From a virus, in the IMG/VR virus record IMGVR_UViG_3300046170_000162, positions 62,001-126,000 of that record: DNA of 64,000 nucleotides; one strand, written 5' to 3'. The notes under the pieces are model-generated. The model worked only from the letters and a program-made list of their open reading frames with translations. It was not told the DNA's origin and did no database searches. The position numbers and the translations under genes were made by a program. Position 1 is the stretch's first letter. Every line of letters begins with the position of its first letter. Below are positions 3,500 through 62,109 of the stretch, piece after piece.

Positions 3500-4164
3500 T
3501 CGTCAATATGTAATTGGTTCTGTAGTTCTGCCCAGTCTTTCTCAAATCTCTCTAGACCATTGTCTGTCAAGATATGGTTGTACATTTTATTGAACACTTG
3601 ATATGGCATAGTCACAATGTCTGCTCCTGCATCAAAACAACGTGCGACTTGGTGCACTTCGCGTACAGATGCAGCAAGGATCTCTGTATCTACATCGTGC
3701 ATACGATAGACTCTAGAGATTGCTTGAACTAGTGATATACCTGAGAAAGAATTGTCATTCAGTCTACCAACAAAAGGAGACATCATAGATGCTCCTGCTT
3801 TTGCAGCGAGGATTGCTTGTGAGACTGAGAAAATTAAGGTTACGTTTGTACTGATACCATCGGATGAGAGATCACTACAGGCAATCAGTCCCTCCCTTGT
3901 ACAGGGAAGTTTAACTGTGACGTTGGGGGCAATACTATAGTATTCATTTGCTGCTTCAATCATTTCTTCTGCTGTATCGCCCATAACTTCTGCAGAGATT
4001 GAAGCATCCCAAGAAAAAAGATCACTGATTTCTTGGATCACGTCTCTAGGTTTCCTACCTGCCTTCAACATAAGAGAAGGGTTAGTAGTTACACCATCAA
4101 TGAGACAAGTTTCCATTGCGTGATGGATAAGTTCGGGGTCCGAACAATCTAGGAAGATTTTCAT
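3496..4164 (-). CDS. talC: transaldolase (TalC / fructose-6-phosphate aldolase type)
   Basis: 222 aa, the length of the short TalC/FSA family. Key segments are the start MKIFLDCSD, DGVTTNPSLM (residues 24-33), VTVKLPCTREGL with the Schiff-base lysine, GISTNVTLIFSVSQAILAAKAGA, and SPFVGRLND. It transfers three-carbon dihydroxyacetone units in the pentose phosphate pathway. In cyanophages TalC is thought to push host carbon away from the Calvin cycle towards pentoses and NADPH for nucleotide synthesis, which fits NrdA/NrdB 2-5 kb away. It is the first gene after a terminator and promoter-like -10 (TATAAT at 4190-4195). Confidence 0.95.
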   Translation of the reverse strand: MKIFLDCSDPELIHHAMETCLIDGVTTNPSLMLKAGRKPRDVIQEISDLFSWDASISAEVMGDTAEEMIEAANEYYSIAPNVTVKLPCTREGLIACSDLSSDGISTNVTLIFSVSQAILAAKAGASMMSPFVGRLNDNSFSGISLVQAISRVYRMHDVDTEILAASVREVHQVARCFDAGADIVTMPYQVFNKMYNHILTDNGLERFEKDWAELQNQLHIDE

Positions 4165-19370: not shown

Positions 19371-19378
19371 TATTTATG
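19371..19378 (-). promoter_or_regulatory. late promoter-like CATAAATA
   Basis: NATAAATA-type site 20 bases upstream of the 276-aa gene. It overlaps the end of the 176-aa gene upstream. It would make the three-gene enzyme cassette late-expressed. Confidence 0.45.
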
Positions 19379-19904
19379 AAACCCAATTAGGTTTACGTTC
19401 TGGCAAACGTAGATAGTTATCTTTGACCCAAGGTTTTGCAGCGATATACCTTCTATATGCAGTGAAGGTATCTATTGATTGATCTTGTTTGAACTCGTCG
19501 AACATTGCTCTGACGAATGGAGTAGGATGTTTCCCACTACGACCCGTAGGATCACCTGTAGGAAAGATTTTACTAGCGTGTTCAATGGTGGATTGACAAG
19601 AGTGGATTTTGCCATAGCGTAATGTGTATTCATTGCACAGTGCGAGACCGTGTGTGATTAACCATCGCCAGTTGAGTACAAAACTGTTTGCCCATACTGT
19701 ACAGGGATGATTACGAAAGGCACCCTTCTCTGTTTTGTAAGGTGTACCGTCAAGTTTTGGTAGGTCACCGAAACCGTGACCCCACTTTTCTGATCCGACA
19801 ATAGAAAGCATCTGACAGGTTTCTAGTGGCATCTTGACAATATGTTTGTCAGGAAGCACTCTGGCAGATGCTATTGGATCAGGGTCTGTTACGAAGATAT
19901 TCAT
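19374..19904 (-). CDS. conserved phage protein, MNIFVxDxDP family
   Basis: 176 aa starting MNIFVTDPDPIASARVLPDK. The run DKHIVKMPLETCQMLS, with its His, Lys and Glu, is a conserved feature of a phage family I have seen but cannot link to a function. Other likely key residues are NHPCTVWANS and FVRAMFDEF. The longer frame upstream is rejected because it translates the structured leader RNA. The leader (19936-20050) suggests translational or riboswitch-type control. Confidence 0.72.
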   Translation of the reverse strand: MNIFVTDPDPIASARVLPDKHIVKMPLETCQMLSIVGSEKWGHGFGDLPKLDGTPYKTEKGAFRNHPCTVWANSFVLNWRWLITHGLALCNEYTLRYGKIHSCQSTIEHASKIFPTGDPTGRSGKHPTPFVRAMFDEFKQDQSIDTFTAYRRYIAAKPWVKDNYLRLPERKPNWVS

Positions 19905-19935
19905 AGACCTGATTATGTGTGGTGTGTGGAGGGAG

Positions 19936-20050
19936 GTTGGATTACTGTGTACCAACAAAAGATGGGCATTACTACAGAGTAAATACATCTTTGCCTGAGA
20001 CCCGACTGGTAAGTCGATTCTGCTTTCGCAGCAGCACCACCTGTGTCTCA
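19936..20050 (-). ncRNA. candidate structured leader RNA (possible riboswitch)
   Basis: Three structural units in the 5' leader of the 176-aa gene. Unit A (20050-19996): a TGAGAC/GTCTCA outer stem closing two hairpins, CTGC-GAAA-GCAG and CGACT-TACC-AGTCG, with a 13-nt single strand. Unit B (19992-19958): AAAGATG/CATCTTT around TTACT-CTGT-AGTAA. Unit C (19956-19936): GTTGG/CCAAC with an 11-nt loop. The CTGT loop of B can pair with ACAG in the loop of C, a possible kissing contact. A sigma70-type promoter precedes it. No known Rfam class was recognised; the hairpins are seen directly, the role is inferred. Confidence 0.6.
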
Positions 20051-20126
20051 TCACCTTAACCAGCAGTATGCCAGTAAGTTTGTTCAGTCACTCCCAGTAA
20101 AAGAAGCGTCCCTCTCTTACAAATAT

Positions 20127-20154
20127 ATCATAGCATAAAAAAAGAGAGTGTCAA
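20127..20154 (-). promoter_or_regulatory. sigma70-type promoter overlapping terminator
   Basis: TTGACA, 16-base spacer, TATGAT. The -35 lies in the loop and descending arm of the terminator hairpin at 20144-20162. It would start the transcript with the structured leader and the 176-aa gene. Confidence 0.7.
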
Positions 20155-20162
20155 GCACTCTC
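20137..20162 (-). terminator. rho-independent terminator
   Basis: GAGAGTG-CTTGA-CACTCTC (7 bp) followed by seven U. It ends the long replication operon (gp43 to the 93-aa membrane protein). Confidence 0.93.
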
Positions 20163-20188
20163 CACGATCCATCTCGAACCAATTTTAT

Positions 20189-61764: not shown

Positions 61765-62109
61765 CTAACCCATTATGTTTACATCTATTCCTAAGAATGG
61801 TGCGATCTTTCCAATGACTCTCAGAAAACCATCGACAAACGCACCAAGGAATGCGAATCCAAGCAACATACTAATAAGTGAAGCATTACGATTATGCCTA
61901 CGAATCTTATCTTCAATCATTTCATCCACTTCATCACGTGTTGGATGGTTGGGTAGAATTTCTTTAAAACGATTTGTCATTGGTTCGTCTCCAAGTTCGG
62001 GTAGATGGAAATCGAAGTCTATAATATCTTCGGATGCCCAAAAATCTTCCCAATCTTTTGGTGAATCGGTTACGTCTTTTATCTCTGGTTTTTCTGGTGT
62101 TTGAGTCAT
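61765..62109 (-). CDS. acidic protein with C-terminal membrane segment
   Basis: 114 aa. Acidic N-terminal 70 residues (DWEDFWASEDIIDFDFHLPE), then a helix hairpin (ASLISMLLGFAFLGAFVDGF). One base after petE ends. Unknown. Confidence 0.65.
   Translation of the reverse strand: MTQTPEKPEIKDVTDSPKDWEDFWASEDIIDFDFHLPELGDEPMTNRFKEILPNHPTRDEVDEMIEDKIRRHNRNASLISMLLGFAFLGAFVDGFLRVIGKIAPFLGIDVNIMG

Follow-up and report, generated by a model that had tools for sequence, protein, structure and literature searches.

A full-length manA RNA in a marine cyanophage, its conserved fold, and a genomic setting that may point to an autonomous RNA

The window analyzed here, 64,000 nucleotides of a virus record (IMGVR_UViG_3300046170_000162, positions 62,001 to 126,000), carries a full-length manA RNA on its minus strand. 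The covariance model of the family (Rfam RF01745) matches positions 19926-20119 with 180.3 bits (E 1.5e-48; gathering threshold 55.2) and is covered completely, from model position 1 to 192, which places the stretch within the family. An Rfam scan of the whole window returned this one manA and one tRNA, so that the density of structure relative to other leaders is gauged here by Rfam alone; the entire virus record, at 181,945 bases, also holds exactly one manA. DNA matches to the region came from 37 records, all of them Prochlorococcus, Synechococcus, cyanophage or marine virus, and judging by these the window derives from a cyanophage. Its manA is an ordinary member of a known but unexplained RNA family of cyanobacteria-infecting ocean viruses. 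The locus reads as follows.

20143..20163, minus strand: intrinsic terminator ending the upstream transcript, with the -35 box of the next promoter inside its hairpin (the same composite is found in 124 of 296 distinct upstream regions among the matches listed)
20127..20154, minus strand: sigma70 promoter TTGACA-16-TATGAT, 11/12, with -35 at 20154-20149 and -10 at 20132-20127; predicted +1 at about 20120
19926..20119, minus strand: manA RNA, model positions 1-192 (RF01745)
20098..20119, minus strand: 5' hairpin of the Rfam manA consensus, beginning at the predicted +1
20091..20095, minus strand: outer stem P1, 5' strand GGGAG, from the consensus and the alignment of relatives
19996..20050, minus strand: TGAGAC/GTCTCA junction with three hairpins; strands 20050-20045 and 20001-19996; helices 4-8
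19958..19992, minus strand: two-step hairpin, 19992-19986 with 19964-19958, inner stem 19982-19979 with 19972-19969; helices 9-11
19977-19974, minus strand: CTGT, likely kissing-loop half in the loop of the two-step hairpin
19936..19956, minus strand: GTTGG/CCAAC hairpin, 19956-19952 with 19940-19936; helices 11-12
19948-19945, minus strand: ACAG, the other likely half, in the loop of the GTTGG/CCAAC hairpin
19931..19935, minus strand: outer stem P1, 3' strand CTCCC; compensatory GGGTG/CACCC in other loci
19374..19904, minus strand: downstream ORF, pyrimidine dimer DNA glycosylase family (PF03013, by protein family match)

The original prediction had placed a leader RNA of three compact structures at 19936-20050, between a sigma70-type promoter and an ATG at 19904. 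Both promoter and start codon are there, and the three structures are all present on the minus strand in agreement with the Rfam consensus of manA, one of the motifs that had been named for comparison. The two-step and GTTGG/CCAAC hairpins are there, as are the TGAGAC/GTCTCA strands and the GAAA loop, but the junction encloses three short hairpins and not two. Likewise, the predicted extent covers the 3' three-fifths of manA, but the element is larger and includes the 5' hairpin and the outer stem GGGAG/CTCCC. The term leader is on weaker ground: in other phages manA is flanked by tRNA genes, or makes up a unit together with a terminator of its own.

Relatives were gathered with exact short patterns, and the samples therefore favor close relatives of the window's type. 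From 223 core matches listed, we excluded 46 (14 chance bacterial matches, the others truncated or unmatched by the 5' or 3' pattern), which left 177, or 165 that were non-identical. We considered whether bacterial hosts carry manA, as 16 bacterial genome contigs among the matches listed fit the core pattern; 14 have no 5' anchor and are chance matches, and the remaining two, L212 and L216, encode phage proteins. Ten loci showed a second 5' anchor; nine of these are chance, and the tenth belongs to a true second copy in contig L327.

Because the fold energy of the region is no better than that of shuffled sequences (z -0.17, with 81 of 200 shuffles as good), thermodynamics fails to show structure here, and it is the homologues that settle the question. 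We aligned 55 non-redundant relatives, among the matches listed, by sequence only (MAFFT) and imposed on them the Rfam structure together with the predicted kissing loop. Standard pairs filled 97.0% of cells in these 55 relatives among the matches listed, compared with 31.9-44.2% when the partners were slid. The compensatory changes that had been proposed as a check were found: in the same set, 24 of 51 pairs were altered on both sides, and none of 500 shuffles reached any of five measures. P1, for example, is GGGAG/CTCCC in some relatives and GGGTG/CACCC in others; the junction stem likewise varies between GAGAC/GTCTC and GAGTC/GACTC, and in place of GTTGG/CCAAC the last hairpin can have GTCGG/CCGAC or ATTGG/CCAAT. 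The alignment thus shows a manA fold that is conserved and covaries across homologues. Chance pairing with no conserved structure, for which the unremarkable fold energy speaks, is refuted by the bit score of the covariance-model match and by these two-sided changes, and we give it practically no credence.

The kissing loop is likely, though short of proven. The pairing that had been proposed between the last two hairpins is kept in 293 of 294 distinct sequences among the matches listed, but its covariation comes down to one C-G to A-U switch: the sole variable pair is C-G in 206 sequences, A-T in 87 and A-G in one. On a tree built from the remaining RNA, two parsimony changes fall at this pair, which corresponds to about one compensatory event and the one exception; a pattern search of viral contigs gave no variant with T or G at the loop base among the matches listed. 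In four divergent named phages the pairing is incomplete by eye: P-TIM40 and P-RSM1 can each form 4 bp, one of them G-U, whereas S-SSM7 can form 3 bp and S-SSM4 none. Collectively, these data support the first reading of the locus, that of a structured leader whose stems show compensatory changes and two of whose loops are likely to pair.

In the accessible part of Weinberg et al., 2010 (PMC2864571), manA is filed as cis-regulatory and as a riboswitch candidate; the window's RNA matches that motif over its full length and with the same stems. The pseudoknot that these authors marked with a question mark is probably the kissing loop described here, going by their text. What is new here is the genomic setting; relative to the accessible text of that study, the additions are the fused promoter, the number of copies, the turnover of sites and the bounding by tRNAs.

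Three readings of conserved short stretches were tried and rejected. An internal ORF starting from the conserved ATGAGACACAGG has variable lengths, extends beyond manA in 37 of 141 cases, and is not conserved in its coding. The mini-ORF GTG-ACT-GAA-TAA has its stop replaced by CAA in some loci, the window included. Finally, CCTCCC was considered as a mimic of the 16S 3' tail, but this strand becomes CACCC jointly with GGGTG.

Upstream of manA, a sigma70 promoter scoring at least 10/12 was found in 159 of 162 loci (non-identical, with at least 75 nt upstream, among the matches listed), compared with 35 of 750 control windows, and the 5' hairpin starts at -2 to 0 of the predicted +1 in 136 of 160 loci among the matches listed. 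The homologues' sigma70 promoter is thus strong by sequence, and the predicted +1 is shown to be manA's first base in most loci. One exception, L021, has by eye a tRNA-like sequence in front. Early promoters of T4 are sigma70 promoters, according to the accessible part of PMC3037559. In the window, terminator and promoter are fused over 20163-20127: the terminator hairpin contains the -35 box, and the T-run falls within the promoter spacer.

Downstream, the next gene is co-directional in 159 of 160 loci, at a median gap of 61 nt (among the matches listed); the exception, L191, involves an overlapping and doubtful gene call. Neighbors converge in 1 locus and diverge in 12, against a background of 47 and 23, so that converging neighbors are rarer than background. 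A 3'-UTR element of gp23 or pstS was rejected, as the upstream gene is on the opposite strand in 13 of 158 loci among the matches listed. Using a custom gene caller, we sorted the downstream genes among the matches listed into 41 protein clusters, among them gp32 (31), transaldolase (25), an unknown 111-aa protein (14) and Hsp20 (12); further genes encode a ManA-type cupin, a PMM-like protein, PurS, ThyX, glycine dehydrogenase, ferredoxin and 2OG oxygenases. These functions are unrelated, and no pathway or ligand is shared among them. In the light, P-HM2 expresses few genes as highly as transaldolase and cp12, according to the accessible part of PMC5082946.

The gap between manA and the next gene holds a terminator in 22 of 159 loci (1.0 expected from shuffles), a companion hairpin with a T-run in 22 of 159 and a late-promoter motif in 42 of 159; at least one of the three is present in 75 gaps and none in 84 (all among the matches listed). 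In the linker immediately after P1 there is almost no G over eight positions (299 loci, among the matches listed). Shine-Dalgarno motifs are scarcer ahead of genes within 100 nt of manA, at 22 of 115, than ahead of the others, at 185 of 577 (means by cluster 0.15 and 0.32, p 0.006), which suggests that genes just downstream are coupled to the leader.

The companion hairpin is an undescribed element of 40 nt, RACCUAAGAUGCAACU-loop-AGU(C)GGGCAGAUGGUY, present in 118 viral contigs (for example at L036:8391-8430). The 3' end of manA lies 11-23 nt upstream of it in 117 of the 118, the remaining contig being truncated. Its internal loop is invariant, standard pairing is kept in 97.6% of cells across 50 distinct sequences, and three pairs are changed on both sides. 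No credible match was found in Rfam, and the window has neither the exact 11-base core nor a near match beside manA.

One manA was found in every one of 22 records, which include 13 whole named phages. Among 49 further contigs, 46 have one copy, L327 has two full copies, G056 has two pieces of one truncated copy, and G041 has none, its copy being cut off by the end of the contig. The two copies of L327, a 4.8-kb contig, stand at 137-310 and 3657-3831 and differ in loop type (C-G and A-T). We also scanned 15 cyanomyoviruses drawn from gp23 and gp32 BLAST lists and not for manA, S-CREM1 being already known as positive. Five had one copy over the cut-off (P-TIM40, P-RSM1, S-SSM7, S-SSM4 and S-CREM1), S-RSM4 had a sub-threshold 12.5 bits, and nine were without a match. 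All 18 manA-bearing named genomes thus have a single copy. We had considered single copy as proof of action in trans, but the glutamine riboswitch (RF01739), likewise a structured RNA of cyanophages, is also present in 0-1 copy in those 22 records, and because of this control single copy alone proves little.

That one copy occupies unrelated sites: after gp23, pstS or regA, in the gap between ferredoxin and carbamoyltransferase, and before gp32 or talC. P-HM1 and P-HM2, which are listed as one species, show this most plainly. In P-HM2, manA sits at the start point of the gp32 promoter, and P-HM1 has the same promoter without manA (L225:2400-2830 compared with L425:2000-2235); conversely, P-HM1 has promoter, manA and terminator after gp23, where P-HM2 has only the gp23 terminator. 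The two copies are identical in 159 of 210 columns, compared with 185 of 191 between P-HM1 and MED4-213, and because they diverge to this degree the difference represents turnover and not a simple move.

Several copies are bounded by tRNAs. In the complete genome of S-CREM1 (L441), tRNA-Leu occupies 1418-1499, manA 1501-1715, and tRNA-Asn begins at 1714 (ARAGORN) or 1715 (Rfam); in S-SSM7, manA ends at 1701, the last model position, where tRNA-Gly begins. A tRNA-Thr ends right before the 5' hairpin in L002, L020, L042 and L071, and among 381 5'-anchor places listed, nine of which are false second anchors, a tRNA follows at 4-10 nt in 15 metagenomic loci and at 51 nt in one. In P-HM1 and P-RSM1, manA is followed by a terminator of its own.

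What, then, might manA do? Our preferred reading, to which we give an even chance, is that manA is a phage RNA in its own right, an autonomous one whose transcription reads through into neighbors, and not a cis-acting riboswitch or a general cis-acting leader. It would be made from its own host-type promoter (one with its +1 at the RNA's 5' end, as looked for in an autonomous gene, is predicted from sequence in 159 of 162 loci among the matches listed) and would fold into a domain closed by P1 and the loop-loop contact. RNase P and RNase Z process tRNAs, and their cuts at abutting tRNAs would free manA; elsewhere, the 3' end could be released by a terminator or by cleavage in the G-poor linker past P1. 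The RNA would then work in trans on some general component of host or phage, perhaps RNA polymerase, the ribosome, a nuclease or a defense protein. In the window, as in many loci, the transcript would continue into the next gene, here the pyrimidine dimer glycosylase, so that manA would be that gene's 5' leader by position without being its dedicated switch.

An autonomous RNA explains the unrelated targets, the tRNA punctuation and the site turnover. It needs read-through because half of the loci show no visible 3' end, and several results weaken it: the near-invariant strand of the next gene with converging neighbors below background, the 84 gaps without terminator, companion hairpin with T-run or late promoter, the scarcity of Shine-Dalgarno motifs downstream, the two full copies of L327, and the start of the window's glycosylase gene, which at 26 nt from P1 is at an ordinary leader distance.

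Following Rfam and Weinberg et al., 2010, manA could instead be a metabolite-sensing riboswitch or another cis-regulator of the downstream gene, which we consider improbable but the stronger of the two cis-acting alternatives. Such RNAs are handled as cis-regulatory in the accessible parts of PMC10665884 and PMC9602691, and the authors of the S-CREM1 genome list manA as cis-regulatory with a role still to be verified (PMC9964418). The co-directional gene at a short gap and the aptamer-like conservation would fit such a role, the terminator or companion hairpin that some loci have ahead of the gene could serve as expression platform, and some targets are sugar-related (talC, the ManA-type cupin and the PMM-like protein). 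Other targets, however, are unrelated to these, from gp32, Hsp20, PurS and ThyX to glycine dehydrogenase, ferredoxin, 2OG oxygenases, a DNA repair enzyme and tRNA genes. Furthermore, manA of S-CREM1 stands directly ahead of a tRNA and not a protein gene, gp32 has manA in P-HM2 but not in P-HM1, and by eye no expression platform recurs in the downstream sequences listed. A riboswitch explains the strand co-orientation but not the diversity of targets, the tRNA boundaries or the changes of site. Our search of the searchable literature found no ligand or function for manA. We know of no ligand for it; the glutamine riboswitch has a known one, given also in its Rfam name.

Somewhat more doubtful is a general cis-acting leader, either a 5'-terminal stabilizer against RNase E or an RNA that, like put and EAR, carries transcription through terminators. 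The put RNA of HK022 and the EAR/epsC RNA act by antitermination. Going by description, they resemble manA in being structured, near the start of a phage or operon transcript and indifferent to gene function; manA differs from them in its larger size and in beginning at the predicted +1. The exactly 5'-terminal position and the independence of gene function would suit a general leader, as would the terminator-like hairpins that stand just before start codons with no promoter between (L116 and L164), and the architecture of a few loci is compatible with antitermination. RNase E is induced during infection of Prochlorococcus by phage, according to the accessible part of PMC9692554. Yet the roughly 80 invariant positions probably exceed the needs of a simple stabilizer, it would be unusual for a general expression module to be present just once per genome, and some of the downstream terminators have a late or sigma70 promoter of their own after them.

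Returning to an autonomous manA, the wcaG RNA (RF01761) offers a comparison. It too is a cyanophage RNA with at most one over-cut-off copy per genome and with tRNA neighbors in S-CREM1, but it has a different fold, and six loci inspected by eye gave no sign of a sigma70 promoter abutting the 5' end of wcaG. Over the cut-off, wcaG was found in 1 of 5 manA-positive and 7 of 10 manA-negative genomes among the 15 cyanomyoviruses (p 0.12), and at E up to 0.001 in 1 of 5 and 9 of 10 (p 0.017), both tests ignoring shared ancestry; it was found in none of the 22 manA-selected records, nor in the window's own record. A bolder proposal, which we hold only tentatively and think may well be wrong, is that manA is not a riboswitch but a single-copy, trans-acting RNA gene of T4-like cyanophages which is repeatedly lost at one site and regained elsewhere, is driven by the fused terminator-promoter or excised from between tRNAs, often carries the undescribed companion hairpin as a second, 3' domain, and would be interchangeable in function with wcaG, one or the other occurring in nearly every such phage. 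If manA is autonomous, ligand hunts based on neighboring genes are misdirected, and a conserved non-coding RNA would join the takeover tools of abundant ocean viruses.

Across T4-like cyanophage genomes, wcaG is nearly complementary to manA in its distribution (L443-L448 and L454-L457). Glutamine riboswitch matches (RF01739 and RF01704) lie near manA at L145:1194-1242 and 1707-1803 and at L228:2028-2080. In S-CREM1, wcaG, tRNAs, manA, tRNA-Asn, abiF RNA and tRNA-Gly form an RNA cluster within 900 bases (L441:1031-1930).
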